Shown here in pieces: positions 24,094 through 40,590 of a DNA stretch of 64,000 nucleotides (its first letter is position 1; each line of letters opens with the position of its first letter). Position numbers and translations under genes: made by a program. Under the pieces are notes generated by a model. The model worked only from the letters and a program-made list of their open reading frames with translations. It searched no databases and had not been told where the DNA came from. The stretch is from NCBI RefSeq assembly GCF_024498135.1, contig NZ_JANHOH010000001.1, positions 992,001 through 1,056,000 on the forward strand, written 5' to 3'. The DNA is from Mucilaginibacter aquariorum (GTDB lineage: Bacteria; Bacteroidota; Bacteroidia; Sphingobacteriales; Sphingobacteriaceae).

Positions 24094-24173
24094 ATAACTA
24101 TCTAACTAACAAGATAATTAAATACCGATTTGGCCTCAAATCTTTTGCAAAGTATAAATAATAATTATATATT

Positions 24174-24187
24174 CGTGTACGTACACG
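24174..24187. promoter_or_regulatory. Candidate LacI-family operator (NagX-like / GH16)
   Basis: Perfect palindrome CGTGTACGTACACG in the 163-bp spacer between the divergent NagX-like and GH16-like genes. The same 14-mer or one-base variants precede four other units of this locus, and a LacI-type regulator is encoded 1.1 kb away. Confidence 0.75.
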
Positions 24188-24256
24188 TTATTATTTTTAA
24201 TTCTTTATTTTTATCCGTTTTTTTAAACAATTTTCAAACACAACTAAACTACAATT

Positions 24257-25060
24257 ATGAAAAAAACAGTTTATCTACTGCTGCTCGCGTTACCTTTCGC
24301 GGCCTGCAAAAAGTCAGACGGGGCCCGTTCGGATACCTCTAAAACGGTACCTGCAACCAACCAAATTGCCGGGGCCAATTCAAATAAGCTAAAAACCAAT
24401 GCTACCCTATCGTTTGCCGGCTATACCTGGGCGGTTACAACAAACCCAACCGGCCAGGGGCCCGGTCCAAATGTGTTTAGCACAGGCAGTGCCTATGTAG
24501 ATGCAAGTGGTTTTCTGCATTTAAAGATTAAGAAAAACACCAGCACAGGTAAATGGGAATGCGGGGAAGTTACCATGCTATCAAACCTTGGTTATGGTAC
24601 CTACCAATGGAAAGTGGAAGGCGCTATAAGTACGCTGGATAAAAATGTTGTTTTCGGTATGTTTAATTACTCCGGTAACGATTTTTTCGATGAAATGGAT
24701 ATCGAATATTCTAAATGGGGTTATGCAACAAATAACAGGGTACTTAACTACACCCTTTACCCTGCAACCGGCAGCAGCCTCGACAGCGTAGAGACCACAT
24801 ACCCGGTTACTTTAACGGGCACTTATACCACGCAAAGGTTCAAAAGATCAAGCAGCGCGGTAACTTTTAAAAGTTTAGGTGGTTTTCATGATGACGATAC
24901 CAACCTGTATGCCAGCAAAACCTGGACCAGCCCGCCGCAATCTATCAGTACATTAGCAATGCCTGTAATGATGAATCTTTGGTTGTTTCATGGCCTCGCT
25001 CCTTCAAACAATCAAAACGTGGAGATCATCATCCATGATTTTAAGTTCACTCCTTTATAG
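24257..25060 (+). CDS. Glycoside hydrolase family 16-like lipoprotein
   Basis: The 267-residue lipoprotein has its lipobox in ALPFAACKK (Cys17), a low-complexity linker to about residue 48, then a jelly-roll domain. The GH16 catalytic motif ExDxE is present as E146-M-D148-I-E150 in DFFDEMDIEYSKWG. GYGTYQWKVEG and the C-terminal PVMMNLWLF support the family. GH16 enzymes cut beta-glucans, agars or related polymers; this branch is found near chitin/GlcNAc genes, so its substrate may be an amino-sugar or host glycan, but that is inference. It has an operator 70 bp upstream and a terminator after it. A C-terminal fragment of a paralogue lies at 35374. Confidence 0.85.
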   Translation: MKKTVYLLLLALPFAACKKSDGARSDTSKTVPATNQIAGANSNKLKTNATLSFAGYTWAVTTNPTGQGPGPNVFSTGSAYVDASGFLHLKIKKNTSTGKWECGEVTMLSNLGYGTYQWKVEGAISTLDKNVVFGMFNYSGNDFFDEMDIEYSKWGYATNNRVLNYTLYPATGSSLDSVETTYPVTLTGTYTTQRFKRSSSAVTFKSLGGFHDDDTNLYASKTWTSPPQSISTLAMPVMMNLWLFHGLAPSNNQNVEIIIHDFKFTPL

Positions 25061-25118
25061 GATCATCAAAAAATAAATAAGGATCTAAGTAATTAATTTA
25101 GTTAATAATGCTGCGTTT

Positions 25119-25149
25119 AGGGAAGAACTATTGTTCTTCCCTATTTTTT
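25119..25149 (+). terminator. Rho-independent terminator of the GH16-like gene
   Basis: AGGGAAGAAC at 25119-25128 pairs perfectly with GTTCTTCCCT at 25133-25142 around a 4-nt loop, followed by a run of T residues. Confidence 0.9.
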
Positions 25150-25284
25150 TTACGTTTTTTTGGATGGTATGCCTGCTCATTTTATTCATAGAACCTATGT
25201 AACACCTACTAAATTTTTACACAGGCAGGCTTGGCTGTGGCTAACAATGATTATTAAAATATATTATATTTGGTTCATCCATAC

Positions 25285-26349
25285 ATGAAAAAGACAGAAA
25301 CCGAGCTAACAGGTGTTAAAGAAATAGCCCGAAGGGCAAACGTATCTATCGGTACGGTTGACAGGGTTATCCATAACCGGAAAGGGGTATCAGAAAACAC
25401 TAAACAAAAAATAAATTCCATTATTGAAGAGCTGAACTTTCAGCCCAATAAAATGGCCAGCCTATTAGCTTCCCGGAAGATGTTAAATTTTGCGATACTG
25501 ATACCTGCGGTTTCTAATGAAACAGATTATTGGAGCTACCCGTTAAACGGGATAAAACAAGCCGCTGCAGAAATAAAACAATTTGGCGTTACCGTTAAAT
25601 ACTATTTTTATGACCTCGACTCAAAAAATAGTTTTAATGCATCGGCCGATGAGATGCTAAACAGCGAACCGCATGCTATCCTGATAGCGCCGTCATTTGT
25701 GGAGGAATCTATCACTCTGGCTAAAAAGATCCAGGAGCTTGATCTGCCCCTGGCTTTTATAAACTCCGACCTGCCCAATCAGCAAAACCTTACTTATATA
25801 GGCCCGGAATTGTATCAAAGCGGTAAGCTGGCCGCGCAGCTGATAAGCCTTTCCATTCAAAAAGCCGATAAAATTTTAACCGTTAACATTTCCACAGACC
25901 TTGAAAACGATCACCATTTATTACGGAAGGAACAGGGTTTTAAGAAATTTTTTGAGGACGCCAAAAAGCCCAACCAGGTATTAACCCTTAACATTAACGA
26001 TACTAAACTGGCTTATGTAGAAAAATCGCTGGTGGAGGTATTATCGGCCAACCCCGACATTAAAGCCATATTTGTAACCAATTCCAGGGTAAATATCATC
26101 GCCAAAATTCTTGAAAAACGCAGAAGGGATGATATTTTACTGATAGGGTACGATTTTTTAAAGAAAAACATCAATTACCTCATTAGTCAGCAAATTACCT
26201 TTTTAATTTGCCAGCGCCCTAAAGAACAGGGATACCTGGGTATTATGGCGCTTTACAAGCACCTCTTTAAAATAAGCGAGGTTGAAAAATCCGTTTATAT
26301 GCCCATTGATATCATCACCAAAGAAAATTACCAGTTTTATAACAGTTAA
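25285..26349 (+). CDS. LacI-family transcriptional regulator of the amino-sugar locus
   Basis: The 354-residue protein has a LacI helix-turn-helix (residues about 9-55, GVKEIARRANVSIGTVDRVI and GVSENTKQKINSIIEELNF) and a periplasmic-binding-type effector domain (NFAILIPAVSNETDYWSYPL, then IKAIFVTNSRVNIIAKILEK). The ATG at 25285 is preferred over an in-frame TTG at 25270. It sits in the middle of the GlcNAc-type utilisation locus, and LacI-type palindromes precede the surrounding transcription units but not this gene, so it is the likely regulator and not strongly autoregulated. The effector, perhaps GlcNAc-6-P or a chito-oligosaccharide, is unknown. Confidence 0.9.
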   Translation: MKKTETELTGVKEIARRANVSIGTVDRVIHNRKGVSENTKQKINSIIEELNFQPNKMASLLASRKMLNFAILIPAVSNETDYWSYPLNGIKQAAAEIKQFGVTVKYYFYDLDSKNSFNASADEMLNSEPHAILIAPSFVEESITLAKKIQELDLPLAFINSDLPNQQNLTYIGPELYQSGKLAAQLISLSIQKADKILTVNISTDLENDHHLLRKEQGFKKFFEDAKKPNQVLTLNINDTKLAYVEKSLVEVLSANPDIKAIFVTNSRVNIIAKILEKRRRDDILLIGYDFLKKNINYLISQQITFLICQRPKEQGYLGIMALYKHLFKISEVEKSVYMPIDIITKENYQFYNS

Positions 26350-27929
26350 TCCTGTATAGCACTTTTCGGGTTTACGTCGATAGCTTCCGGATGATAGCCC
26401 GGATTAAACGGATCGTAATAGTAAAGACCTGCCTGCTTGTAATATTGTAAATGAGCGCTTAGCCTTTTGTTAAACAGCTCATCGTTTTTTGTCGGTTCGG
26501 CCACCCAGCCCGCTTCCGCCATAGCGGCCAAACGCGGAAACAGCAGATATTCAAGTCTTTTTTTAGTGACAACAGTTTCTGTCCACAGGTTGGCTTGCAG
26601 GCCTATAACGTTAGCTTTTTTGTAAACCGTATCGGCAAGAGCATTTTCCGGGAAATGGTAAACATCAAGATACGTATTATACAGCTTACCCCATTTACGG
26701 CCGGATACATGGGTGCTATCCTGCACAAAATCAAAATACAGGGGCAGCCTTGGGCAAAGCACCACTTTATAACCTTTGTTAAGCGCCTCGGCCAGCGATT
26801 CGGGTTTGTTTTGCCGCCACCAGTTTACCACAACCTTAGCTGTAGGCAACCCGGCGGGTACGGCTTCGTCCCAGCACATTACGCGACAGCCCAGTTTTTG
26901 TACGGTATCGGCAATACGTTTTAAAAAATAAAACTCCGCCTGCCGATAATCAGTCATTTTTTTGGCGGCCAGCAGCCTGAGCACATCCGGGTTGGTTTCC
27001 CAGGCTTTAATACCCAAAGTAACCTCATCGCCACCTATATGGATAACATGAGCCGGGAACAACGTCCTAACCTCTTTTAAAACATTGCTCAAATATTTAT
27101 AAGTTGTTTCTTTAGCTGGATTAAAGGTGAAGTTCTCGTATCCCGGCGTAGTGCCGCCCGAAAGCTCGGGGTATGCACTGGTTGCACCTGTTGCATGGCC
27201 CGGCATATCAATTTCGGGAATGATCTCGATATTTCGTCTTTTGGCAAATGCCACTATTTCTTTTATATCCTTTTGTGTATAGTATTGGGCTTTTGCGGTA
27301 GAATCCGTAAAATTTCCCTTACCGCCTTTGGTGGCCAGCAGCGGATATTTTTTAACCTCGAACCGCCATCCCTGCGCATCAGTTAAATGCCGTTGAAAAC
27401 GGTTCAGCTTGTAAAAAGCCATCCAGCTTAGGATACTCTTGACAACCTTTTTCCCAAAAAAGTGTCTCGACTCATCAAGCATAAAACCACGCCACTGGTA
27501 CCGGGGCTGGTCAGTAATTTTTACGCCGGGCAGTATCATGTTTGTGTAATCGCTTTTTGCGGATCTGTAAAGCTGCGATAGGGTGATCATTCCGTAAAAC
27601 ACCCCTGCCCTATCCGCGGCTGTTATTTTTATTATTTTACCGGATGCGCTTAGCGTATAGGATCCGGGCGTTGTGTTATTGCCGTTAATGCTGATCTGGA
27701 TCTTTTGCATCGCGAGTGCCTTTTTAACGGCCTTATTCAAATCCTCATTTAAATAATTTACAACACCCTTAAACTTTTGGTTATCGGTATAAAACCTGCT
27801 GTTTTTTGCTATGAGCAAATTATCCTTCAGCCTGGTTACCTCATTTGGATAAGGGATGAGGTTTAACTCCTGCGCATATAAAACACAGGGGAAAAGGAAT
27901 ACCGTTAACAATAAAACATACTTTTTCAT
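26346..27929 (-). CDS. Beta-N-acetylhexosaminidase, GH20
   Basis: The 527-residue exported enzyme has a signal peptide (MKKYVLLLTVFLFPCVLYAQ), an N-terminal GH20b-type domain (about 22-140) and a TIM-barrel catalytic domain. The catalytic pair is D301-E302 in HVIHIGGDEVTLG; EIIPEIDMPGHATGA and HLTDAQGWRF are further GH20 signatures. Family members release terminal GlcNAc or GalNAc by substrate-assisted catalysis. It is the last gene of a three-gene minus-strand unit (GH20, CBM9-like, GH20) with a one-base gap to the CBM9-like gene, and its stop overlaps the stop region of the convergent LacI gene by 4 bp. It probably supplies GlcNAc in the periplasm. Confidence 0.95.
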   Translation of the reverse strand: MKKYVLLLTVFLFPCVLYAQELNLIPYPNEVTRLKDNLLIAKNSRFYTDNQKFKGVVNYLNEDLNKAVKKALAMQKIQISINGNNTTPGSYTLSASGKIIKITAADRAGVFYGMITLSQLYRSAKSDYTNMILPGVKITDQPRYQWRGFMLDESRHFFGKKVVKSILSWMAFYKLNRFQRHLTDAQGWRFEVKKYPLLATKGGKGNFTDSTAKAQYYTQKDIKEIVAFAKRRNIEIIPEIDMPGHATGATSAYPELSGGTTPGYENFTFNPAKETTYKYLSNVLKEVRTLFPAHVIHIGGDEVTLGIKAWETNPDVLRLLAAKKMTDYRQAEFYFLKRIADTVQKLGCRVMCWDEAVPAGLPTAKVVVNWWRQNKPESLAEALNKGYKVVLCPRLPLYFDFVQDSTHVSGRKWGKLYNTYLDVYHFPENALADTVYKKANVIGLQANLWTETVVTKKRLEYLLFPRLAAMAEAGWVAEPTKNDELFNKRLSAHLQYYKQAGLYYYDPFNPGYHPEAIDVNPKSAIQD

Positions 27930-27930
27930 A

Positions 27931-28578
27931 CTACACGAGTTTTAAAATAGGGTCCGGGTCAAACTTCACCTTACCAAAAGATGCCGGTTGGTGAAAATCG
28001 GGTTTTTCGGAGATAATTTCAACCCAGCTTAAAAAATGCGGCTTTGGCAGGTTATCGCCGCACTTGGCAAAGTTTACCGAGCAGTCTTCGCCGCTTAGCG
28101 ATTGTTTGTCGCTGTAACAAAACACCGATACCGGCAACACTATGGTGATATCCCATTTAACCGGCTTACCAGCCGAAAGGTTGTCCATACAGATGGTGAT
28201 ATTATCCTCTACCCCTTTTAAAAGTTCGGGCGGCAAAAACCTACGATGAAGCCGGCCCTTGCCATAAGCCGCTTTTACAGAACCCAGGCAGTTAAACTCA
28301 AAATTATAGTAACTGGCTTCCTGGCCAAAGGCTATAAAAAACTCTACGCAGTTATCTTTATGAACCTCGCCGTTTATCTTTCTTTTTTTTGCCCGCAGAA
28401 ATGGCTCAGTAACCGAAAACCTGAGGTGGATCCCCTCCTCGAAATGCGAGATAGCAAAAGCGGCCGAGCATGAGAGGGTGCTTTCCGGGTTCCATGGTTC
28501 GTTATCGATGGGGTGCAACGTTAGTTTTTGGTGCGCATAGGTATCTTGCGTCACAAACGGAATATTTAGAAACTTCAT
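27931..28578 (-). CDS. CBM9-like carbohydrate-binding protein
   Basis: The 215-residue protein resembles the CBM9-like domain found in many Bacteroidota polysaccharide loci: EPWNPESTLSCSAAFAISHF, then RLRF-like strands with KDNCVEFFIAFG and YYNFEFNCLGSVKAAYGKGR, ending in NFAKCGDNLPKPHFLSWVEI. No signal peptide is obvious, which is unusual for a sugar-binding protein next to secreted enzymes. The start overlaps the upstream GH20-like gene by 4 bp, and the stop is one base from the next GH20 gene, so it is an integral part of this operon. Binding of an amino-sugar oligomer is likely but not shown. Confidence 0.75.
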   Translation of the reverse strand: MKFLNIPFVTQDTYAHQKLTLHPIDNEPWNPESTLSCSAAFAISHFEEGIHLRFSVTEPFLRAKKRKINGEVHKDNCVEFFIAFGQEASYYNFEFNCLGSVKAAYGKGRLHRRFLPPELLKGVEDNITICMDNLSAGKPVKWDITIVLPVSVFCYSDKQSLSGEDCSVNFAKCGDNLPKPHFLSWVEIISEKPDFHQPASFGKVKFDPDPILKLV

Positions 28579-30134
28579 TTTACTTTTGCTAAACGATCAT
28601 ATAAAACGTGCACCTTTTGGCTCCTCAACAGGTTCTCCTCATCTATCGACGATTTAAAAAGAAAATCCTGGTTAAGGGCCGTAAACTCATCGTTTAACCT
28701 TTGCTCATCGGCCAGTAATTTTTTCAGTTGCAGTACATACGCCGGTATTTGTTTATCAGTAACGCCGGGGGCATTTACCTCGGCCTCAATTTTCATATAG
28801 GTGAGGTAATAAACCCTTATATCGGCCATTAAAATATAGTGTTTAAACTCCTGCAAACCTTTTACGGGCTGTAGCAACCTTAGCGTTTTAAGTGAGGTTT
28901 TGGCGCTATCAAGCAGTTGCCCAATTGTTATTGCCGACGGTGATATCACCTTGCCGTGTACAACATTATACGGCGTAGAACAAAGCGCTTTTTTAAACAG
29001 CATGGCTTTGCGGGCATCTAAACCGTAACGGCTGCTGCAATAGCTTTTTATAAACTGATCGTTTGTTAATTTAGAGGCGGGGTTTAACGCATTAAGGTAA
29101 TAGTTAATCAAAATATTAAAACCACTAAGCGGGTAAACGTGCCTGATGGCGTACAACTCGATAGGTTCGTCCTCCGATTCGAAAAGGGTTGAGTAAACAC
29201 CCGAGGTTGACCAGGAGGTCATCACTATGCCCTTATATCCAAGCTTTCGGCTCAGGGGCAGAAAATCCCGCACGTTGTTAAAGTGCTTCTGCCAATCCGT
29301 AAGGAAATAATTATCGGGGTGGCTACGCAGCGCCGGCGAGCCCCAGATCTCGTAGCCCGATTGCAGCAGTTTAGCATGGTCACCAAACCGGTTTACATCC
29401 CAGCCATAATTCCAATCGATGAAAATGGTTTCTTTAGGCAGCAGGTTGATGTAATCAGGATATTTAAGCGCTATATCCGCCCATACTATTGGTTTTTTAC
29501 CGAGACTTACCACAATATCGCAAAGCATTTTGATATGATCGAAATAAAGGCGCGATAGCCCGATCTCGGCTGCTCTTTTTTTACATTTTTCGCAGTGGCC
29601 AAGTAAATAGGTCTCGTCGCCACCAATATGTACGTAGGGCGAGTTATGGGTTGCTACCAGGTCAGTATAAAGTGTTGTAAATAACTTCTTGTTCAGTTCC
29701 GGTTCACTTGGGCATACCTGGCTAAAATCTTTCTGATCTTCGCGCAGGGCGGCGTATTTATAATTCCTTAAAATATACTCCACATGTCCAAAGCTTTGCT
29801 GTAGCGGAATAACCTGAATGTGCAGCGAATTACAATAGCCGATAAAATCGCGGATCTCCTGCCTCGAATAGGCGTACTTATTGGCAATAAGGGGTTCTTT
29901 AACAAAAGGGTAGCTGCCCTCCCATTCAACCAATAAGGTGTTGATACCGTTCTTACTCAAGTTTAAAACAAACTTTTTCATGGCGGGCATTTTCATCACC
30001 TGGATACGCATATCCAGATGAAAGCCTTTAACGGCAACCGAATCTGCTACATTTAAGTTTATGGCAGATGACGGGCGCGCCATCCCGATAACTAAGAGGA
30101 TAAGTAGTAAGCTACGTTGTAAATAAGCTTTCAT
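28575..30134 (-). CDS. GH20-like hexosaminidase (family 20 related)
   Basis: The mature protein follows a signal peptide (MKAYLQRSLLLILLVIGMA, then RPSSA). The core contains VKGFHLDMRIQVMKMPAMKK, LHIQVIPLQQSFGHVEYIL and the catalytic PYVHIGGDETYLLGHCEKCK, where the Asp-Glu pair matches GH20 and hexosaminidase-D-like enzymes. At about 519 residues it lacks the usual GH20b N-terminal domain of its neighbour and so may have different specificity. The ATG at 30134 is chosen because it opens the signal peptide; the longer frame would need a TTG inside the promoter. A LacI-type palindrome at 30191-30204 lies 57 bp before the start. It is the first gene of the operon with the CBM9-like and second GH20 genes. 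Confidence 0.88.
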   Translation of the reverse strand: MKAYLQRSLLLILLVIGMARPSSAINLNVADSVAVKGFHLDMRIQVMKMPAMKKFVLNLSKNGINTLLVEWEGSYPFVKEPLIANKYAYSRQEIRDFIGYCNSLHIQVIPLQQSFGHVEYILRNYKYAALREDQKDFSQVCPSEPELNKKLFTTLYTDLVATHNSPYVHIGGDETYLLGHCEKCKKRAAEIGLSRLYFDHIKMLCDIVVSLGKKPIVWADIALKYPDYINLLPKETIFIDWNYGWDVNRFGDHAKLLQSGYEIWGSPALRSHPDNYFLTDWQKHFNNVRDFLPLSRKLGYKGIVMTSWSTSGVYSTLFESEDEPIELYAIRHVYPLSGFNILINYYLNALNPASKLTNDQFIKSYCSSRYGLDARKAMLFKKALCSTPYNVVHGKVISPSAITIGQLLDSAKTSLKTLRLLQPVKGLQEFKHYILMADIRVYYLTYMKIEAEVNAPGVTDKQIPAYVLQLKKLLADEQRLNDEFTALNQDFLFKSSIDEENLLRSQKVHVLYDRLAKVK

Positions 30135-30190
30135 AAAATATGATAAAGATATTTCCCCATGCCTGTTACGGCATAGGCAATATTGCCACC

Positions 30191-30204
30191 CGTGTACGCA
30201 CACG
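30191..30204. promoter_or_regulatory. Candidate LacI-family operator (GH20 operon)
   Basis: CGTGTACGCACACG, one base from the perfect palindrome, located 57 bp upstream of the first GH20 gene and downstream of susD. Its presence indicates that the GH20 operon has its own promoter, separate from susCD. Confidence 0.75.
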
Positions 30205-30238
30205 AATGGCAATTATACTCAATTTATTATTAGCAATA

Positions 30239-31876
30239 TCAATAGCCCGGGTTTTGCTCTAATTTAGCATCTTTATTCAAATCTATCTCTGATTGTGGGA
30301 TGGGCAACAACAGGTTTCTTGACGCTATACCCGTAATTTTCAAGCCCCTGCCTACAACCCGTTGCAGCAGCGTACCGGTGCGCATTAAGGTCATCCGGCG
30401 GTTCTCTTCGCCTATCAGTTCCCTCACCCGCTCATCCAAAATAAAATTCATAGTGATATCGCCGGCTGCTACATGGCCTGCATGGGCCCTGTCCCTTAAA
30501 ATATTGATGGTAGTTGCGGCACCGCCCGTATTGCCTTGTTTAAACTGGGCTTCGGCTTTTAGCAAATAGGTTTCGCCCAGGCGCATAATGATAAAATCTT
30601 TAATCATGCTGCTTCCAAACGTGTCGTTCGGATCAAACTGGTCCCATTTGTTTGTTTTGGGTACTATATTGCGGTTGGTATCAATACCCAGCCCAGGCAC
30701 CACAAGTTGCCCGTAATTTGGCGACGATGGGTTATTGTAATAGTATTTTCTGCGCAGGTTGTATTGCGAGTTACGCATATCATTAGCGCCGTAACTATTT
30801 AACACAAAATAAGTTAATGCCATCCGGCTGATACCCCTGCCGCCTAAAGTATCGCAAAGCAGCATGCCCGCCTGATTGTAATACCTGCTGCCCCAGGCAC
30901 GCCTGTGCTGCGAACCCAGGAACCGGTATCCTCCAAATTTCGACTGGATATCCGGCCCTGCGCCGTTTGGTACCGATGCCGGGTTTTCCGTTTCTTCCAC
31001 CCAAATAGCTTCCTTATTACCCTGGCTGCGGCGTTGGTTACCGTATATAAACATATCCGAGAACGGATCGCCGGGTTGCGAGGCTTTTACGCCGTAGCGC
31101 GCATCGATCAAACTAAAATCGCCGCTATTAATTATTGCATTACATTCAGCCTCGGCTTCGGCATCCTTACCCCCCATCCTCAAATAAGCCTCGGCCAGTA
31201 ATTGCGATGCCATTGATTTATTTGGAAGTGATTTAGCCTCAAGTTCATCTATTGATGGCGCGTTCACCTTGGCAAAGTTCAGGTCTGATACTATCAGGTC
31301 ATTGATATCTTTTACCGGCGCCCTCACAAAGTCGGTTTTAGGAGCAGTTAGCGGCTCTTTAATGAGCGGTACGCCCCCGTAAAGGGTTGCAAGGTAATTA
31401 TAGGCCAGCGCGCGGTAAAACATGGCCTGGCCTTTTATTTTACCTCTAAAACTACTGCCTACCGGGATAGACGGCTTATCGATATTGGCGATAACCACGT
31501 TTGCATTATTGATGAGGTTGTAAGCCCATTTCCAAACAAACGCAGATGCGCCGTTCGCCGAATTCAGTTTTTCATAATTTGTATAGGGTATCGAAACCGG
31601 GTCAAGGTCATCGGGTGCTTTGTTATAAGCCACATCAGTGCCCATTTGCCAAACGCATAAAAAGCCCTGGTTACCGTTATTATCCTCGTTCATGGTGTTC
31701 CAAAGCGAGTACTGGCTTTGCAAGCCAATTATACCAGCCTCAAACGCTAAGGAATCATTTAAGGCTTCGGGGGTGAATTTTGAATAGACCTTTTCGGTCA
31801 GAAAGTCCTTTTTACACGCCTGCATCGTACAAATTGCTGCTGCGGCGACTGTTAATATTATTTTATAAGTTTTCAT
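30239..31876 (-). CDS. SusD/RagB family outer-membrane lipoprotein
   Basis: SusD-type proteins are surface lipoproteins that cap the SusC transporter and bind the incoming glycan. The protein of about 545 residues has a lipoprotein signal (MKTYKIILTVAAAAICTMQA, then CKKDF) and the alpha-helical TPR-like SusD fold: KGQAMFYRALAYNYLATLYG, VPLIKEPLTAPKTDFVRA and, at the C-terminus, LDERVRELIGEENRRMTLMR, with LLLPIPQSEIDLN near the end. The ATG at 31876 opens the signal peptide and lies 10 bp after the susC stop. With SusC it probably imports amino-sugar oligosaccharides in this locus. Confidence 0.95.
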   Translation of the reverse strand: MKTYKIILTVAAAAICTMQACKKDFLTEKVYSKFTPEALNDSLAFEAGIIGLQSQYSLWNTMNEDNNGNQGFLCVWQMGTDVAYNKAPDDLDPVSIPYTNYEKLNSANGASAFVWKWAYNLINNANVVIANIDKPSIPVGSSFRGKIKGQAMFYRALAYNYLATLYGGVPLIKEPLTAPKTDFVRAPVKDINDLIVSDLNFAKVNAPSIDELEAKSLPNKSMASQLLAEAYLRMGGKDAEAEAECNAIINSGDFSLIDARYGVKASQPGDPFSDMFIYGNQRRSQGNKEAIWVEETENPASVPNGAGPDIQSKFGGYRFLGSQHRRAWGSRYYNQAGMLLCDTLGGRGISRMALTYFVLNSYGANDMRNSQYNLRRKYYYNNPSSPNYGQLVVPGLGIDTNRNIVPKTNKWDQFDPNDTFGSSMIKDFIIMRLGETYLLKAEAQFKQGNTGGAATTINILRDRAHAGHVAAGDITMNFILDERVRELIGEENRRMTLMRTGTLLQRVVGRGLKITGIASRNLLLPIPQSEIDLNKDAKLEQNPGY

Positions 31877-31886
31877 TTGAGTTTGA

Positions 31887-34800
31887 TTAACGAAGTGTGA
31901 TGTTAGCACCTAAAATAAATGTACGTACCAGTGGGTAGTTGCCCTGGGTATCGCCTGTAGTGCCGTAGCCTACTTCAGGGTCCCAACCGTACCATTTGGT
32001 AAACGTTGCAAGGTTGCGCCCGCTCACATAAACGGTAAGGCCGCCAAGTTTTAATTTATCAAGTAAGTTTTTAGCCATAGTGTAGCTTAGCGTTACATCT
32101 TTTATCCGGGTGTAGCTTGCATCTTCCGGGTAACCGTAGTTGAGGTAGTTAACATAGGTTAGTTTTGGACGGGTGTTGCTTTGGTTGGCTTCTGTCCAGT
32201 AACCTAAACCGCTTGGCAGGTTTTGCCGCCCACCAAAATCTTTAAAATTAGTAGCGTCGTTATTTTTGGTTACACCCTGTACAGTTTGTATAAAAACATT
32301 TAAATGAAAGTTTTTGTAGTGGAAGGTGTTGGTGATACCGCCCGTCCATTTAGGGATCTCCTGGCCAACTATCATCTGGTCTTTACCATCAGAACTAATG
32401 ACTCCGTTACCGTCCAGGTCTGCAAATTTAAGATCGCCCGGTTTAGCATCGGGGTCTTGTTTAGACGGGTCTTCACCTACTTTCCAAACGCCGGCTTTTT
32501 TGTAATCATAAACAATGTTAACCGGGTGGCCAATAAAGAAACGGTTACCTAAGTCGTCTTTTTTATCGCCATACAGGTCAACTATTTTGTTGCTGTTGGT
32601 AGAAAAATTAAGATTGGTTTCCCATTTAAAATCCTGCCCTGTTATGTTTTGGGTCCTAAGCGATACCTCTAACCCTTTGTTTGATACCTTGCCAATATTG
32701 GTAACTACTTGCGAGTAGCCCGTGGCTGATGGCAGTGAGCGGTATAGTACCAGGTCTTTTGTATGAGTGTTATAGGTTTCGATAGTACCGGTAATTCTAT
32801 TGTTAAACAGCGCGAAATCGATACCGATGTTGCTACCATAAGTACTTTCCCATTTCAAGTCTTTATTACCCATAATATCGGCAATTACACCGGTGGTAGG
32901 ACGGCCGTTGGAGGGGATAGATATTGTAGTGAAAGTTGAAATGGTAGAGGTTGGATCGACAGCCGATTGGTTACCCGATAAACCGTAAGAACCGCGTAAC
33001 TTCAAATTGTTTACGAAGCTTACGTTACTCATAAAGTTTTCATTGCTGATGTTCCAGCCTAAGGCAACGGATGGGAACAAACCATATTTGCTGGTATTGG
33101 CGCCAAATGCCGAGTAGCCGTCCCTCCTGGCGGTAGCGGTAAACAAATATTTGCTATCGTAATTGTAGTTAACGCGCAACATTTGCGAAACCATTTGGGT
33201 AGTTATCGCTTCAGATTCCGCCGAGATGGTATTGGCACCCTGCAGGTTGCTAAATCCCAAAGCATCATTAATAAACCCAGAGGCCGAAGTGGAAGACGAA
33301 TAGAGTTTGTTTTCCTGAGCGCTGTATAAACCGGTTAGGTCTAAGTGGCTTTTATTCCAGTTTTTCTCATACGATACAATGTTCTCTACTATCCATCTTT
33401 TCCGTTCGCTGTTTACCACCGCTGCCGTGCCGCCCGCAATATCGCCGGCAAGCCTGCCCTGGTAACTCTGAAAAAGTGTTGGGGTATAGGTATAACCCGC
33501 GTTTATGCGATATTTAAAACCTGCAAAGGGTTTTAGCTCGGCATATACGTTGGCAATAACATTCTGGCGCCTGTCGTTCCGCTCGGTAGTAAGGCCAAGC
33601 ATCGGGCTTTGAATTGCCTCCTCTCCCTCCATCGGGAAAATAGCATAAGTACCGTCGGGGTTTTTAAACCGGCCATAGGGGCTTACTTCTGATGCCTGCT
33701 TTAAACTTGCCCGGCCGCCGTCAGAATTGTTCGACACCAGGTTTAGGTTTAAACCCGCGCTTAAATAATTGGTGATCTTAGCGTCAATGTTCGACCGGAT
33801 GCTGGCACGTTTGTTCTGGTAACCTTTTATCACCCCCTTCTGGCTAAAATAATCGCCTGAAAAGTAGTACTTCACATCATCGTTGCCGCCAGATACGCTT
33901 AAGGTATGATCCTGGATAAATCCTTGCTGCTGAATAGCTTTCAGCCAATCGGTTGTAATACCGGCGTCATAGTTTTGCTGCTCATATAAATTCGGCACAA
34001 CAAAATCATTGATAACATCTGCCTGCTTTTTCCAGTCGGCATACTTTTGAACATACTCGGCGGGGCCCATGGGTTTTAAAGTATGGGCAAAGTTTTCGTA
34101 ACCGGCATAAGTGTTAAAGTTGATCGACGCTTTACCTATCTTACCGCGTTTTGTGGTGATGAGTATAACGCCGTTTGCGCCCCTTGTACCATATATAGCG
34201 GTTGCAGATACATCTTTTAAAACATCAACCGACGCAACATCTGTTGTGCTGATATCACTTAGCGTGCCATTCTCGAAAGGGAGGCCATCAATTACTATTA
34301 AAGGGGCCGTTTGGCCATTAATGGTATTAACGCCCCGTACAAGCACAGAAGGCGATTCGCCGGGAACGGCCGTGCCGGTAGAAATATTTACCCCCGCCAC
34401 CGCACCCTGCATGGCCTGCAGTACATCGCCCACAGGCAATTGCGATAACCTGTCTTTCGGCAGCGAGGAAACAGAGCCGGTTACATCGCTTCGTTTGGCA
34501 GTACCATAACCAACAACCACAACCTCGGTAAGTGATTTATTTACCGAGGTCATTTTTACCTCTATTACCTTACCAAATTCCGCCCGCACCTCTACCGGGG
34601 TGTAGCCCATGCTTGTAATTTCAAGAAGCGCCCCCTCGGGCAGGTTTATTTTAAACATACCCTGTGTATCAGAAATTACACCGGTTGTAGTGTTCTTGAT
34701 TTTTACGGATGCACCGATGATAGGATCATTTGTGGTATTGTCGGTAATTTTACCGGTAACGGTTTTGTTTTGCGCCTGCGCAGTGTTGATTAATAACAAC

Positions 34801-34952
34801 AATGTTGTCACCAAAACCGTAAAGCTTTTGATATTGCATAGGCCGGATATCTTTTGCAGAAAGCCGCAACAGTTTATTGCGGTTTCAATAGGACCGTGCA
34901 CCCTATTTACTTCCTTAAATGAAAATGCACCTGGAGGTCGTTGTTTAATCAT
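31887..34952 (-). CDS. SusC/RagA family TonB-dependent outer-membrane transporter
   Basis: The 1021-residue protein has an unusually long N-terminal extension before a signal-like hydrophobic stretch (residues about 43-60, VLVTTLLLLINTAQAQ). It continues with a carboxypeptidase-regulatory-like domain (about 63-140, TVTGKITDNTTNDPIIGAS), a plug with TEVVVVGYGTAKRSDVTGSV and GVNTINGQTAPLIVIDGLPF, and a C-terminal 22-strand barrel ending in ILGANITLR. SusC proteins use TonB energy to take up glycans captured by SusD, which is encoded 10 bp downstream. Two LacI-type sites (35136-35149 and 35157-35170) lie in its upstream region. Use for chito-oligosaccharides or other GlcNAc glycans is inferred from neighbours. 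Confidence 0.95.
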   Translation of the reverse strand: MIKQRPPGAFSFKEVNRVHGPIETAINCCGFLQKISGLCNIKSFTVLVTTLLLLINTAQAQNKTVTGKITDNTTNDPIIGASVKIKNTTTGVISDTQGMFKINLPEGALLEITSMGYTPVEVRAEFGKVIEVKMTSVNKSLTEVVVVGYGTAKRSDVTGSVSSLPKDRLSQLPVGDVLQAMQGAVAGVNISTGTAVPGESPSVLVRGVNTINGQTAPLIVIDGLPFENGTLSDISTTDVASVDVLKDVSATAIYGTRGANGVILITTKRGKIGKASINFNTYAGYENFAHTLKPMGPAEYVQKYADWKKQADVINDFVVPNLYEQQNYDAGITTDWLKAIQQQGFIQDHTLSVSGGNDDVKYYFSGDYFSQKGVIKGYQNKRASIRSNIDAKITNYLSAGLNLNLVSNNSDGGRASLKQASEVSPYGRFKNPDGTYAIFPMEGEEAIQSPMLGLTTERNDRRQNVIANVYAELKPFAGFKYRINAGYTYTPTLFQSYQGRLAGDIAGGTAAVVNSERKRWIVENIVSYEKNWNKSHLDLTGLYSAQENKLYSSSTSASGFINDALGFSNLQGANTISAESEAITTQMVSQMLRVNYNYDSKYLFTATARRDGYSAFGANTSKYGLFPSVALGWNISNENFMSNVSFVNNLKLRGSYGLSGNQSAVDPTSTISTFTTISIPSNGRPTTGVIADIMGNKDLKWESTYGSNIGIDFALFNNRITGTIETYNTHTKDLVLYRSLPSATGYSQVVTNIGKVSNKGLEVSLRTQNITGQDFKWETNLNFSTNSNKIVDLYGDKKDDLGNRFFIGHPVNIVYDYKKAGVWKVGEDPSKQDPDAKPGDLKFADLDGNGVISSDGKDQMIVGQEIPKWTGGITNTFHYKNFHLNVFIQTVQGVTKNNDATNFKDFGGRQNLPSGLGYWTEANQSNTRPKLTYVNYLNYGYPEDASYTRIKDVTLSYTMAKNLLDKLKLGGLTVYVSGRNLATFTKWYGWDPEVGYGTTGDTQGNYPLVRTFILGANITLR

Positions 34953-35135
34953 AATCTAAGTTTTAATTAGTTGTTAATAATGAGTTATACAGATAGTTAG
35001 TACTGGTATATACTTAAGCCGGTTATCACCCTCACCTATCCTCCTGACCTTATCCCGGGCAATCCTGACCGGAGCAATTCACAACATCCCTCTTCTCCAT
35101 CGCCCACTCTTTTTAGAGTGGTTTTCCATTCATAT

Positions 35136-35170
35136 CGTGTACGTATACAATTTTATCGTGTACGTACACG
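35136..35170. promoter_or_regulatory. Tandem candidate LacI-family operators (susC)
   Basis: CGTGTACGTATACA at 35136-35149 (degenerate right arm) and the perfect palindrome CGTGTACGTACACG at 35157-35170, spaced 21 bp start to start, about two helical turns. Tandem sites on one helix face suggest cooperative binding at the susC promoter. Confidence 0.75.
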
Positions 35171-35335
35171 ATAAACAAATATAGACAGTTAATTTATTTA
35201 TCCAAATTTATTTTTATGTATTTCGCGATAATCGAAATCTCCGGACTATAAAAAGTCGTTTCAAGGCGGTTTAAGTCCTGTTTATGCCTCTAATTCGATA
35301 TAAAAATTGGTATTGTGGTGCAATAAAGTTAACGT

Positions 35336-35349
35336 CGTGTACGCACACG
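35336..35349. promoter_or_regulatory. Candidate LacI-family operator (GH16 remnant)
   Basis: CGTGTACGCACACG 25 bp before the truncated GH16 frame at 35374, the same one-base variant as in front of the GH20 operon. The operator has survived although most of the coding region has gone. Confidence 0.7.
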
Positions 35350-35373
35350 TTAATATTTATTTAAAACTTTTTT

Positions 35374-35601
35374 ATGAAGGCACGCGGAATCCAAAATTCG
35401 ATTGTATTTAAAAGCCTGAACGGTTTCCATGATGACGATACCGGTATATTTGCCAGCAAGAACTGGGCAGCACCTGATAACTCGGTAAGTAAATTAGAAA
35501 TGCCCGTAATGATGAACTTATGGCTGTTCCGCGGTGTAAAACCGTTGAACGACAAAGATATGGAGATCATCATACACAGCTTTAAATATACACCGCTATA
35601 A
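35374..35601 (+). pseudogene. C-terminal remnant of a second GH16-like gene
   Basis: The 75-codon frame matches the last third of the GH16-like protein at 24257. Shared segments include VFKSLNGFHDDDTG against TFKSLGGFHDDDTN, then MPVMMNLWLF and EIIIHSFKYTPL against EIIIHDFKFTPL. The signal peptide, the jelly-roll core and the catalytic ExDxE are missing, so it cannot be an active hydrolase. It begins just after an intact LacI-type operator, which suggests an internal deletion that joined the promoter region to the 3' end. Whether the peptide is still translated is unknown. Confidence 0.85.
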
Positions 35602-35627
35602 TAAGTGGTTTTAAACCTGCCGCATAA

Positions 35628-35662
35628 ACAAGAAAGGGGTGGTAAAACCATCCCTTTCTTGT
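35628..35662. terminator. Bidirectional rho-independent terminator
   Basis: ACAAGAAAGGG pairs with CCCTTTCTTGT across 35628-35662, with additional TGGT/ACCA pairing inside. It lies between the convergent GH16 remnant and nagB-like gene and has A/T tracts at both ends, so it can serve both strands. Confidence 0.85.
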
Positions 35663-35686
35663 TTAGTATCAATTATCAGTAGTTAC

Positions 35687-36472
35687 TTACGTTAATACCT
35701 GGCTAAAACTATCGCGGTCTACAAACAACATCGCGCCTTCGTGTGTTTTTAATATGGTTGATGGGTAGCGCTCTGATACCGGCTGCTCCAGTGTAAGTTT
35801 AACAGCTGCCGCTTTGTTGATGCCCGGCACCATACAAAATATATAAGACGCACTCATCAGCGCCGGTACCGTTAAAGTTAACGCGTAGGTTGGCACATCA
35901 GTTAAGGTATCAAAACAACCATCGTTAACCTGTTGCTGCCTGCAGGCCGGGTCTAACAACGCTACTTTAACCAATTCGGGGTCATTGAAATTTGCTACAT
36001 GCGGGTCGTTAAAGGCAATATGCGTGTTCTCCCCTATCCCCATAAATACAATGTCTGCCGGGTTTTCTTTCAGAAGGTTACTGTACCGGGTGCACTCTGC
36101 TTCAAAATTCACCATGCTGCCGTTTATACAATTCACAGATGCAAAAGGTACGCGGCCGAAAATTTTCTCCCGCAAAAAACTGCTGAACAACTCCGGGGCA
36201 TCCGCGGGCAGGCCCAGGTATTCATCCATGTGAAAAGCATTTGTCTTTTGCCATTCAATGCTGTTATCGGCAACCAATGCGGCCAAAAACTCGTTTTGTG
36301 AGGGAGCGGCAGCAAAAATGATATTGATAAATGGTTTTGTACCCAGTAGCTGTTTAATCTTTTCGCTTGCCAGTTTTGCTGCAGTATTGCCTAATATCGC
36401 CCTGTTCTCAGAAACAAATACCTCTAATTTATCCTCTTTTATATTTTGTAACATGTGTTTAATTATCTTCAT
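35687..36472 (-). CDS. nagB: Glucosamine-6-phosphate deaminase-like protein
   Basis: The 261-residue protein belongs to the NagB/6-phosphogluconolactonase-like superfamily and would convert glucosamine-6-phosphate to fructose-6-phosphate and ammonia. NAFHMDEYLGLPADAPELFS holds the Asp equivalent to E. coli Asp72 (D83 here). The active-site loop reads GIGENTHIAFNDP: the ring-opening His is kept (H151), but the Asp141 equivalent is Asn149, Gly142 is Thr150 and Glu148 is Asp156. Such variants occur in paralogues of Bacteroidota, so activity may differ. Start can be 36472 or the Met seven codons on. It follows nagA by 3 bp and is the last gene of the importer-nagA-nagB operon. Confidence 0.82.
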   Translation of the reverse strand: MKIIKHMLQNIKEDKLEVFVSENRAILGNTAAKLASEKIKQLLGTKPFINIIFAAAPSQNEFLAALVADNSIEWQKTNAFHMDEYLGLPADAPELFSSFLREKIFGRVPFASVNCINGSMVNFEAECTRYSNLLKENPADIVFMGIGENTHIAFNDPHVANFNDPELVKVALLDPACRQQQVNDGCFDTLTDVPTYALTLTVPALMSASYIFCMVPGINKAAAVKLTLEQPVSERYPSTILKTHEGAMLFVDRDSFSQVLT

Positions 36473-36475
36473 CAG

Positions 36476-37663
36476 TTAAGCGGAATGCACAACCCTGCCG
36501 CCAATAATTGTTTTATGCAAATTAATGTTATCATCAAAAATTACCAGGTCGGCATCCTTTCCTATTACAATTGATCCTTTTTTATCATCTGCCCCCATAA
36601 TTTTTGCCGGGGTGATGGTCATCATTCTTATAGCGTCGATAAGGGGTACATCTGCCAGGTTTATCATATTACGCACCAACTGAATGGTGGTAGCCACGCT
36701 GCCGGCAAAAGCGCTCCTGTCGGGTAATTTTGCTACGTTATCTTCCACAATAACTTTCAGGCCGTGTTCCAAACCGCCTAAAATACTTTCGCCCGGCGGC
36801 ATGCCTGCGGCCCGCATAGCATCGGTTACCAGCGCAATTTTATCGGGGCCTTTTATTTTATAAACCAATTTAAGCAGGGGGGGCGGCAAATGAATGCCAT
36901 CGGCTATGATCTCGACGGTCATATCATCCAGCAAGTAACCGCTTTCAACAACACCGGCGTACCTAAAGGCATTACGGCGCGACACGCCCGACATACATGA
37001 ATAAAAATGCGTGATATGGGTGTAACCGCTTTCATAAGCTTCGAGCACTTCCTCGTAGATGGCATCGGTATGGGCTATGGAAGGCAGGATGCCTTTTGAT
37101 ACCAGGAACCGGCCAAACTCAACCGCGCCATTTACCTCGGGCGCAGCACTCCATCTTTTTACAATGGATGAATGCTGCAGGATCTCTTTGTACTCCTGTG
37201 GATCGGGCAGCCGGATAAAGCGGGGATCCTGCGCGCCGCGCTGCTCCATTGAAAAATACGGCCCCTCAATGTGCATGCCCAGGTAATTTGAGCCCATAAT
37301 ATTTAAAGGTTCAGATTCTTCATACAGGCTTAATGTTTTAAGCAGAGCGTCTTTTTCGCAGCTAAGCGTTGTTGGTGTAAATGAGGTTGTGCCGTGGCTG
37401 GCATGCAGTTTTGCGATTTCCAGGTAGGCGTTAACTGTATTATCCATAAAATCGTGACCGCCGCCACCATGTACATGGATATCGATAAAACCGGGCGACA
37501 GATATTTACCACCGGCATCAATTATGTTTTCATTCGCTCCTTCTATTTCGCCCTCCGAAATAGCTGTTATTGTGCCATCATGCACCAGTAACGAACCATT
37601 ATTTAATATGCAGGTTGGGGTAATGATCCGGGCATTGATAATTTTTAAATCTGAAGAATCCAT
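36476..37663 (-). CDS. nagA: N-acetylglucosamine-6-phosphate deacetylase
   Basis: NagA removes acetate from GlcNAc-6-phosphate, giving glucosamine-6-phosphate for NagB. The protein of about 395 residues shows the amidohydrolase TIM-barrel pattern: metal-binding HVHGGGGHDFMDN, the family signature GMHIEGPYFS with the conserved Glu, SIAHTDA, THFYSCMSG, and the catalytic Asp in IALVTDAMRAAGMPPG. ATG 37663 (MDSSDLKIINARI) is chosen because homology begins there; a longer in-frame start at 37711 would overlap the importer gene. It lies 16 bp after the importer stop and 3 bp before nagB. Confidence 0.93.
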   Translation of the reverse strand: MDSSDLKIINARIITPTCILNNGSLLVHDGTITAISEGEIEGANENIIDAGGKYLSPGFIDIHVHGGGGHDFMDNTVNAYLEIAKLHASHGTTSFTPTTLSCEKDALLKTLSLYEESEPLNIMGSNYLGMHIEGPYFSMEQRGAQDPRFIRLPDPQEYKEILQHSSIVKRWSAAPEVNGAVEFGRFLVSKGILPSIAHTDAIYEEVLEAYESGYTHITHFYSCMSGVSRRNAFRYAGVVESGYLLDDMTVEIIADGIHLPPPLLKLVYKIKGPDKIALVTDAMRAAGMPPGESILGGLEHGLKVIVEDNVAKLPDRSAFAGSVATTIQLVRNMINLADVPLIDAIRMMTITPAKIMGADDKKGSIVIGKDADLVIFDDNINLHKTIIGGRVVHSA

Positions 37664-37679
37664 TTTTGAAATATTTGTA

Positions 37680-38980
37680 TTAAAAACTCCATTTTTTGAC
37701 CTTATGGCCATAAAACGCGTAAAAAATCAAGTAGAAATAACAGGGCAGCAATACCCAATAGGCCTGCCGTAGGCTAAAATGATCGGCAAAGTAACCGTAA
37801 AACAACGGCAGAATAGCGTTGCCACAAAGCCCCATAATAAGCAACGATGCGCCTATTTTTAAATGCCGGCCCAGATCATTCAGGGCCAGCGGCCAGATCC
37901 CAGCCCAAATCATAGAATTTGCAAAACCTAAAAGTACAATAAACCATAACGAGATATCTGGCTGATGGCCAAGAAACTGAACAGGCCCTTGCCCATAATT
38001 ACCAATACAGAAAACATAAAACCCAGCACAGTGCATAACCTAAGTGCAGTTTTTTGAGAAATAGCCCAGGGAATTAAAGTGATACCCAGTAGGTAACCAC
38101 AAATAGTTGCAAATAATGTGTAGGACGGAAATACCTTAGCCTCGGCGAGCGAGATCCCCATACTTTGTGCATATGGAATAATGGTATCGATAGCGATAAC
38201 CTGCGAACCTACATGGAAGAAAATAGCCACGGCACCCAATATAAGGTGCGGGAATTGGAAAATCCCCGTTTTGTCTGTCTTAGTAGTTATGCTTTCTTTT
38301 GCATCCTCTGCCCTGTCTATCTCCGGTAGCGGCGAGTATCTGACTAAAACACCAAGCAAAGTTAGCACGCAACCTACCATAGCATAGGGCAAAATAACCC
38401 GTTTGATGAGCATATCCAAAACTTGGTTCTTTTGAACATCGCCCATCAGGTGGATATCCTTAAACAGCTGGCTGTCGCCCGGTTTTATGATAATTGCAGC
38501 TAACAACAATGGCGCTATGATACCCGCGGTTTTATTACAGATCCCCATAATGCTGATACGCTGGGCCGCCCTTTCTTTTGCCCCTAATATGGTAACATAA
38601 GGGTTGGCAGCAGTTTGTAATATAGCCAGCCCGATCCCGATAATAAAAAGGCCGGTCAGGAACAGATAGTATGACCTGATCATCGCTGCCGGTACAAAAA
38701 CAAATGCGCCAACAGCCATTATCCAGAAACCAACCATCATACCTTTTTTAAACCCTATTCTTTTTAACAGGAATGAGGATGGCACCGATATAACAAGGTA
38801 AGAGATATAGAAAGCGAAGGTTACGAGGTATGATTGAAAATTACTGAGCTGGCAGGCCAATTTAAAATACGGGATAAGCACCGCGTTTATCCATGTTGCA
38901 AACCCGAAAACAAAAAACACGATACAGATGATCATCAACGGTATAATATTTTTAGACGGGGAGATCTTCATATCAGCCAA
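37680..38980 (-). pseudogene. MFS sugar (GlcNAc-type) importer, single frameshift
   Basis: Reconstructed, this is a 12-helix major-facilitator protein of about 433 residues of the FucP/NagP type, expected to bring GlcNAc or a related sugar through the inner membrane. The first frame (38980 to about 37986) begins MADMKISPSKNIIPL and includes GFATWINAVLIPYFK and LQTAANPYVTILGAKERAAQ, the latter typical of NagP/FucP carriers. The second frame continues with GHQPDISLWFIVLLGF and FANSMIWAGIWPLALNDLG to the stop at 37680. One C seems to be missing in AAGGGCCTG at 37982-37990. It heads the operon with nagA and nagB, with a LacI-type operator 26 bp upstream. A sequencing error is as likely as real inactivation. 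Confidence 0.85.
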
Positions 38981-39005
38981 ATTGACGTGTTGGGGTTTAT
39001 AAATT

Positions 39006-39019
39006 CGTGTACGTACACG
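39006..39019. promoter_or_regulatory. Candidate LacI-family operator (importer-nagA-nagB operon)
   Basis: Perfect palindrome CGTGTACGTACACG 26 bp upstream of the importer start. Together with the sites at 24174, 30191, 35136/35157 and 35336 it completes the set of units in this locus. Confidence 0.75.
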
Positions 39020-39642
39020 GATGCAATAATAGGTATATTATTGATAAAAAAAAATCTTCTTTATCTGTTTTAAAATGGATATTAAAAAAAACTCCTAATA
39101 ATTACGGATCTGAAGTAAAGTAAGTGACTTCACCGTTTAAATAGCCAAAAGGAGTTTTTGGTTAAAAAAGATTAATTTAAAACCAATTTTATTGTTATCG
39201 TTATACAATTAAATTTTATTGAGTTTTTGTCAAAAACAACGATATTTATATCATAAGCATTAGCGAAAATTGAATTATTTTTTGGGTGACCTATTCGGTG
39301 AACCGGCAAGTTTTAAGATATATAATGCGTTGATTTAGAGAGTAAAGGAAATTCTTTTTTGTTCCCTCCGCCTCCCAACCGGCAGGCCAGTAAACTTTGT
39401 TCTTTATAAATAATATAGTGACAGATTAGAGACCCTTAAATAAAGTTAACGCGCAAAAGATTCTAATTCAATGAGTTGCGACGAAGGTTAAAATCCCTCC
39501 CGATCCACGTACATCCCAAATAAAAAATCAAGGTTTTTAAGTACTATATTACGGTTACCTAAATACTTTGCACATTCTTTGTTTGCAATCTGTAATCAAT
39601 AAACTAACGAATTACCATTTTGAAAATCTTATAGTGATATTT
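39020..39642. other. Gene-free spacer with hairpin and repeat
   Basis: This stretch contains AACTCC...GGAGTT arms at about 39089-39156 flanking a 55-nt interval, the first copy of a ~140-bp direct repeat (39240-39379) and, at about 39478-39510, a sequence resembling a tRNA 3' end (GGTTAAAATCCCTCCCGATC). No intact gene is seen. Confidence 0.45.
39240..39379. repeat. Diverged direct repeat, copy 1 (attachment-site-like)
   Basis: About 140 bp similar to 40451-40590. Shared blocks are TCATAAGCATTAGCGA, GGTGACCTATTCGGTGA, AAGTTTTAAGATA and GTTCCCTCC. The end resembles the 3' part of a tRNA gene, a common target of tyrosine integrases. No integrase gene is near, so this is an inferred fossil attachment site. 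Confidence 0.6.
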
Positions 39643-40450: not shown

Positions 40451-40590
40451 CGTTATTTACATCATAAGCATTAGCGATTATTGAACGATTTATAGGTGAC
40501 CTATTCGGTGACCCGGGAAGTTTTAAGATACGTAAAGCATTGATTTAGTGTGAACAAAATAACCATCTTTGTTCCCTCCCTCTCCACGAG
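40451..40590. repeat. Diverged direct repeat, copy 2 (attachment-site-like)
   Basis: Second copy of the repeat at 39240-39379, in the same orientation 1.2 kb away, roughly 75 percent identical by eye. It ends in GTTCCCTCCCTCTCCACGAG, close to the 3' ends of serine-type tRNA genes. The two copies bracket the USP and FixH remnants. Confidence 0.6.

Follow-up and report, generated by a model that had tools for sequence, protein, structure and literature searches.

The subject of this work is an amino-sugar locus located at positions 22,861-39,019 of a 64,000-nt stretch (hereafter, the window) of the 5,965,450-base genome of Mucilaginibacter aquariorum (22 contigs). In order, the locus encodes a NagX-like protein, a GH16 protein, a LacI-family regulator, GH20, CBM9_2 and GH20-like proteins, SusD, SusC, a GH16 remnant, a NagB-like protein, NagA and a major facilitator superfamily (MFS) importer. 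Very probably, one LacI-type repressor, encoded at 25285, runs the whole locus from outer-membrane uptake to sugar breakdown, and six copies of the palindrome CGTGTACGTACACG, exact or nearly so, are its operators. We infer this because the word (i) is confined to the locus; (ii) co-occurs with the LacI gene; (iii) is kept at syntenic promoters; and (iv) follows nagAB when these genes are located far from the regulator. The idea of one regulator for uptake and catabolism had been put forward in a previous reading of the same DNA from its letters alone (the sequence-only reading), and these observations support it.

A scan of the window, in which up to three mismatches were allowed, returned sites at 24174, 30191, 35136, 35157, 35336 and 39006, with 0, 1, 2, 0, 1 and 0 mismatches, respectively. 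All six copies reported in the sequence-only reading were recovered at their positions; the one- to four-base variants mentioned there must be reduced to two mismatches at most. In shuffled windows, the mean number of matches was 1.24 and the maximum 4, so that none of 100 shuffles reached six. In the complete genome, 15 places match the word with no more than two mismatches, six of which are the sites of the locus. A genome scan had been proposed as a check of the confinement of the word, and it came out in its favor: the five places with 0-1 mismatch are all within the locus. The nine places outside the locus carry two mismatches each, and seven of them fall within frames that stay open for 80 codons or more; a reversed-word control gives 12 places genome-wide. 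Among 295 genomes of the class (10 of the same family and 285 of other families), the exact word is present in a single one, namely that of M. aquariorum itself, and in none of the 285 genomes of other families.

In a sample of 201 genomes of the family, CGTGTACGNACACG is found in 17 and a match to the LacI protein at E<=1e-30 in 86. All 17 genomes with the word are among those 86, and none of the 115 others has it (Fisher test, 2e-7, uncorrected for relatedness). In 16 of the 17, the closest CGTGTACGNACACG site shares a contig with the LacI gene and lies within 38 kb of it. In the remaining one, G039 (G-numbers stand for genomes and L-numbers for fetched stretches), the single site is 1.6 Mb away from LacI, between Nramp-like and serine hydroxymethyltransferase genes. 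Within the genus (149 genomes sampled), YGTGTACGYACACG is present in 31 and LacI, at E<=1e-100, in 25: 23 of the 25 genomes with LacI have the word versus 8 of the 124 without it (Fisher test, 3.4e-18, again uncorrected for relatedness), and in 22 of the 23 genomes that have both, the word is found within 14 kb of LacI on one contig. Sixty stretches of the family were fetched, 21 of them because the genome held the word (six of which have no LacI gene in the stretch) and 39 by LacI alone. A site with up to two mismatches occurs in 32 of the 39 stretches picked by LacI. The 60 stretches together hold 88 such sites, compared to 1.3 in 20 shuffles; 200 palindromes built from permuted half-sites give a mean of 2.5 and a largest value of 13. 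A chance origin of the sites is ruled out by the shuffles, the genome scan, the permuted-half-site controls and the class sample.

The comparison of orthologous loci, also suggested beforehand, revealed that the word is kept at syntenic promoters. Unit heads were counted in 16 syntenic loci, window included, and a site was present at the head of susC in 15/15, MFS in 10/10, NagX in 9/9, the GH20-like gene (GH20a) in 8/8, GH16 in 3/3, LacI in 9/12 and NagA in 3/15. Most of the NagA "heads" are not real, because NagA usually follows the importer in an operon and the importer alignment ends early. The pair of susC operators, the downstream copy of which is the weaker, recurs with an equal spacing of 21 bp in L167 and L132. 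Regarding the LacI gene itself, the statement that it has no site is correct for the window, where no operator is found directly upstream and both GH16 and a hairpin (25118-25143) lie between the site and the gene. It does not extend to the relatives: 9 of the 12 loci counted have a site no more than 350 bp upstream of LacI, at a distance of 80-117 bp in eight loci and of 348 bp in the ninth. Autoregulation of LacI is unsupported in the window, given the lack of a site before the gene and the terminator-like hairpin that separates it from GH16; in the relatives it is no more than possible, since none of the LacI sites directly follows a -7-like element (0/15 pairs, see below).

The strongest single test of the regulon is provided by nagAB genes that lie in trans. 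In G290, nagAB has an exact site directly upstream and is 3.1 Mb away from LacI; in G294, the site directly upstream has one mismatch and the distance is 3.5 Mb; and in G285, nagAB is on another contig than LacI and again has an exact site upstream. As a separate observation, the syntenic locus of L132 belongs to Pedobacter cryoconitis, its LacI has 81% identity and is nested among those of Mucilaginibacter in the tree, and horizontal transfer is a possible origin for it.

The protein encoded at 25285 has the two domains that define the LacI/GalR family, that is, an N-terminal LacI helix-turn-helix and a periplasmic-binding-protein-like domain, and its closest solved chain is 3gbv (1.8e-42), named "Putative LacI-family transcriptional regulator". 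In the published recognition code of the family, residues AA-15,16 are paired with bases NT-5,-4, an Arg at AA-20 with a G at NT-6, and the Leu of the hinge with a CG in the middle of the operator (Camas et al., PMC2978694). By eye, the protein fits this code, with Ile-Gly facing TG, Arg facing G and Leu facing CG: its hinge, PNKMASLLAS, carries Ala at AA-51 and Leu at AA-54, both conserved in the family, and the operator centre, TACGTA, contains CG. In the parts of that paper available, the code is drawn for the TVSR group, whereas the family described here is TVDR. A set of 87 orthologous and paralogous proteins divides at AA-16 into 38 with Gly and 49 with Ala; CGNNTACGTANNCG sites accompany 22 of the Gly proteins and 30 of the Ala proteins in their stretches. 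All half-sites (96/96) associated with Gly have TG at NT-5,-4, while those associated with Ala have TG (43), GG (27), GT (19) or TT (13). This is suggestive of a match between the operator bases that vary and the helix pair, variable between orthologues, that would read them.

The elements TTTG and TAnnTTTG are the -33 and -7 promoter elements of Bacteroidota. A -7-like element was scored as TAnnTTTG with at least five of its six bases, ending 3-6 bp before the operator. It is found in 51 of 119 site-gene pairs, compared to 2-23 in 19 control offset stretches, the highest of which (19-23) are near -40 to -33. A further peak (25/119) at offset -6, which uses the CG of the operator itself, is unexplained. 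By gene, the element is present in 17/22 pairs for susC, 14/18 for GH20a, 10/19 for MFS and 10/19 for NagA. At the susC promoter, the order is TTTGGA, then TATATTTG and then the operator.

According to the proposed mechanism, the LacI protein would repress all units until an amino-sugar signal frees them. A dimer would read the half-sites CGTG-TAC and GTA-CACG, with the hinge leucine meeting the central CG, and the repressor, once bound, would sit over the start site of transcription and so block RNA polymerase. Binding is predicted to be tight on CGTGTACGTACACG and weak on CGGGTACGTACCCG, and the two susC sites, 21 bp (approximately two helical turns) apart, would permit cooperative binding on one face of the DNA. 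The hypothetical effector, to which the periplasmic-binding-protein-like domain would respond, is probably N-acetylglucosamine (GlcNAc) or GlcNAc-6-phosphate of intracellular origin. In the window, LacI is probably made constitutively, because its gene lies behind a terminator-like hairpin and has its own TATATTTG. As for function, the locus is predicted, from its gene content, to import and digest a GlcNAc-containing glycan, and the substrate of the importer is likewise a prediction.

A number of observations weigh against this reading. Two of the 25 LacI-bearing genomes of the genus lack the word and eight genomes have the word without a LacI orthologue; of these eight, five have a LacI paralogue (37-40% identity) in the fetched stretch, two have a site directly before nagAB and one is unexplained. 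Similarly, 7 of the 39 stretches picked by LacI have no site at up to two mismatches. No -7-like element was found just before the site of NagX (0/16), LacI (0/15), NagB (0/5) or GH16 (0/3), and therefore occlusion of the start is unsupported for those units. The Gly/Ala label changes six times on the tree of 87 proteins (four of these changes are forced by well-supported branches) and three times on the 52 rows with sites, so that a phylogenetically independent test has just 2-3 pairs and little power, and the link with the operator bases is non-significant in it. In some distant orthologues, among the few stretches annotated, sites are located beside DegT aminotransferase, Gfo/Idh/MocA and GH18 genes, which means that the content of the regulon drifts. 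The operon importer-nagA-nagB described in the sequence-only reading stands as to its site and gene order, but the importer frame (37683-38971) breaks near 37,990, with the last ~100 residues in another frame, while it is unbroken in seven relatives; either a mutation or an assembly error would account for the break. Finally, a GlcNAc kinase with an operator was not found in a search limited to PF01869, which gave two sub-threshold matches on another contig. Another target set is seen in L092, where a LacI orthologue with Ala at AA-16 adjoins genes for a DegT aminotransferase and Gfo/Idh/MocA; the stretch has a CGGTTACGTACACG site, and a search of it for nag genes found none.

A rival explanation is a different reader of the palindrome, i.e., one of the six other LacI proteins of the genome or an unlinked factor, the protein encoded at 25285 being then a mere neighbour. 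No site directly precedes the LacI gene of the window, and in five congeners the above-mentioned paralogues share a stretch with this word or one like it, so that more than one LacI may read it. Nevertheless, the presence of the LacI orthologue predicts that of the word, and the variation in the operator bases agrees with that in the recognition residue of the 25285 protein. This protein has Ile-Gly-TVDR, while four of the six other LacI proteins of the genome have TVSR or TVSK helices after other residues; the helices of the remaining two are unresolved, which leaves some room for this explanation, on balance very unlikely. The sister group of paralogues shares a stretch with the same or very similar word in L187, L188, L196, L197 and L198, where the neighbours are alpha-galactosidase, APH-family kinase or SusC-like genes, and its operator specificity possibly overlaps with that of the group described here.

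Alternatively, LacI could act as an activator, or a Crp-like protein or a sensor system could take part in the control, so that LacI would not be the sole switch. Polysaccharide loci of Bacteroides thetaiotaomicron are assigned, in the available passages of the source, to hybrid two-component systems (HTCS) and SusR-like regulators (PMC3878776); a cNMP-binding protein is encoded at 41550-42140 of the window; the effector logic is putative; and the missing -7-like elements at NagX, GH16 and LacI would be compatible with such an arrangement. But the susC and GH20a sites lie just downstream of -7-like elements, which is the position of a repressor, and no sensor kinase, HTCS, SusR or extracytoplasmic function (ECF) sigma/anti-sigma factor was found among the 20 window ORFs scanned, so we give shared control or activation only a slim chance. 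It is scarcely credible that the word is a leader RNA hairpin or a terminator-like element and no operator at all. All four sites that were folded form hairpins, two sites are listed as terminator-like and many would fall at transcript starts; moreover, the unmatched flank pairs of 25 more extended sites include 12 G-U and 2 A-C pairs, a count that has no control. Against it, the number of G-U pairs in 52 sites does not exceed that obtained when flanks are permuted (39 vs. 47), the core is fixed while the flanks vary, and the word tracks the LacI gene and also occurs between divergent genes.

An unexpected property of the candidate operators is their tendency to be the centre of long palindromes. 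A search of 103 stretches (1.96 Mb, with slight overlap) for perfect palindromes whose arms reach 14 bp or more gave 19, of which 17, 30-50 bp long, are centred on operators. Thus 17 of 103 distinct sites, all of them in relatives, lie within perfect palindromes, for instance L171:15219-15268, L173:6248-6295, L174:5884-5927 and L167:18388-18431, and their arms match within a site and differ between sites. Of the 1030 flank pairs that the 103 sites have at positions 8-17 from their centre, 521 are complementary, versus 393 in reshuffled flanks (standard deviation, 15; largest of 2000, 438). In the window, no site lies in a perfect long palindrome: 7 of 10 pairs are complementary at 30191, 6 of 10 at 35157 and 3-5 at the other three sites counted.

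When the two arms of one site were compared with each other and with the same arm across genomes, the number of agreements out of 10 was 7.3 versus 5.2 for the importer, 6.6 versus 5.3 for GH20a and 10.0 versus 8.2 for NagX/LacI. The NagX/LacI sites of five genomes differ symmetrically, including a symmetric change in length. By contrast, the susC arms contradict concerted copying (4.7 for their own arms versus 6.4 between genomes). No clear extra conservation was observed for the promoter-side arm over the leader-side arm (5.2 vs. 4.6, 5.3 vs. 5.2, 6.4 vs. 6.5 and 8.2 vs. 8.2) so that neither direction of copying is favored. Arms are known to become homogenized by template switching between inverted repeats, as described in the accessible part of the source (PMC8604942). 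It is possible, with a chance somewhat short of even, that the operators are a hotspot of arm copying by template switching, which would turn 14 bp into palindromes of up to 50 bp, so that mutation, besides selection, would keep their symmetry, and that a switch from Gly to Ala at AA-16 would relax CGTG to CGGG, CGGT and CGTT in the TVDR branch, beyond the published code. Selection by a protein that reads beyond the width of one dimer may, instead, explain the long palindromes. Selection at the RNA level was considered too and is unsupported, given that in the 52 sites already mentioned neither G-U pairs nor A-C pairs (20 vs. 22 permuted) are in excess. In any case, repeated palindromes of 30-50 bp around a fixed core offer a direct way to ask if operator symmetry stems from mutation or from selection.

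The features of the locus are collected in Table 1. Its gene assignments, as given in the sequence-only reading, hold in profile searches, and adjacent SusC and SusD (TIGR04056, PF07980) together with glycoside hydrolases (PF00728) identify it as a polysaccharide utilization locus (PUL). For the intact GH16 copy, the Pfam profile search gave no match; its relatives show 85% identity in L169 and 51% in L182. The GH16 remnant, with its own operator-like site (35336-35598), and nagB are convergent. Among the other stretches searched, just six (five if L129 and L169, which are one locus, are counted once) yielded a GH16 homologue, and the GH16 cassette seems, for this reason, to have been duplicated or moved. 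Downstream of the locus, two similar stretches of ~60 bases, 1.2 kb apart, were noticed by eye at about 39285-39345 and 40490-40555 (from ..GGTGACCTATTCGGTGA.. to ..TTGATTTAG..).

Table 1. Genes and DNA elements of the amino-sugar locus, in window positions.
Feature	Position	Strand	Remarks
NagX-like membrane protein (HGSNAT_cat)	22861..24093	-	PF07786 6.9e-8; NCBIfam NagX 2.3e-52, 178 bits, below the cut-off of 480; downstream of the 24174 site
Candidate operator CGTGTACGTACACG, 0 mismatches	24174..24187	.	Between divergent NagX and GH16; equivalent position in L169
GH16-type lipoprotein, intact copy	24257..25060	+	Weak NCBIfam beta-glucanase matches; catalytic EMDIE motif by eye
Terminator-like hairpin, 11 pairs and T run	25118..25143	+	Separates GH16 from LacI
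LacI-family regulator	25285..26349	+	PF00356 2.7e-16 (HTH) and PF13407 2e-33 (Peripla_BP_4), both above cut-off; AA-15,16 = Ile-Gly; TVDR
GH20 beta-hexosaminidase	26346..27929	-	PF00728 2.9e-101
CBM9_2 protein	27931..28578	-	PF16011 5.7e-50
GH20-like protein	28575..30134	-	PF00728 1.2e-15 on longer frame; start placed at ATG 3' of operator
Candidate operator CGTGTACGCACACG, 1 mismatch	30191..30204	.	Heads the GH20-CBM9-GH20 operon; within an imperfect 32-bp palindrome
SusD	30239..31909	-	PF07980 1.7e-28
SusC TonB-dependent transporter	31887..34952	-	TIGR04056 2.9e-245
Second candidate susC operator, TGTATACGTACACG on gene strand, 2 mismatches	35136..35149	.	21 bp downstream of the first susC operator
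First candidate susC operator, 0 mismatches	35157..35170	.	Begins 5 bp past TATATTTG
Operator-like site, 1 mismatch	35336..35349	.	Ahead of GH16 remnant
GH16 remnant	35392..35598	+	Final 69 residues, 61% to intact GH16
NagB-like glucosamine-6-phosphate deaminase	35687..36472	-	PF01182 2.3e-15; TIGR00502 4e-35, below cut-off
NagA, N-acetylglucosamine-6-phosphate deacetylase	36476..37711	-	TIGR00221 292.4 bits, cut-off 225.65
MFS importer, broken frame	37680..38980	-	PF07690 1e-18
Candidate operator CGTGTACGTACACG, 0 mismatches	39006..39019	.	Heads the importer-nagA-nagB operon; equivalent position in L167-L170, L176, L177, L181

The closest known systems are the NagR regulons of Gammaproteobacteria, which, like the regulon proposed here, comprise a LacI-type regulator of GlcNAc use and a core of nagA and nagB (PMC5343134, PMC2996990). 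As far as the available text of these sources goes, NagR takes in TonB-dependent receptors and a kinase in two Xanthomonas species, where nagAB and nagP are under NagQ (PMC5343134), and the GlcNAc pathway of Shewanella also includes nagP, nagX and an outer-membrane transporter (PMC2996990). The locus described here, compared to NagR by description only, differs in that it belongs to another phylum, has a SusCD pair rather than a lone TonB receptor, and has nagA, nagB and the importer, plus the receptor, under one word. Within Bacteroidota, the LacI regulators KdgR, UxaR, UxmR and UxuR of B. thetaiotaomicron have been inferred by comparative genomics (PMC3878776). In the passages of that study at hand, these four act on uronates, whereas GlcNAc is under NanR (of the ROK family) and polysaccharide loci are under HTCS or SusR-like regulators. 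The xylan PUL of Gramella flava is alike in having a lacI gene within a SusCD locus and unlike in its substrate, and the passages seen describe no operator (PMC5306329). That a SusCD locus run by a LacI protein is notable, as previously claimed, can be maintained in part: its novelty is smaller, since a lacI gene within the Gramella PUL (PMC5306329) and NagR regulons with TonB receptors (PMC5343134) are in print, at least in the portions of both papers available. In the open PMC literature, no paper describing this regulon was found by title or abstract.

In the phylum Bacteroidota, HTCS or ECF systems are the usual explanation for loci of this type. With the regulon proposed here, the phylum would gain a concrete and testable case of an entire amino-sugar PUL under a one-component repressor, including its operator, its promoter geometry and a list of targets.

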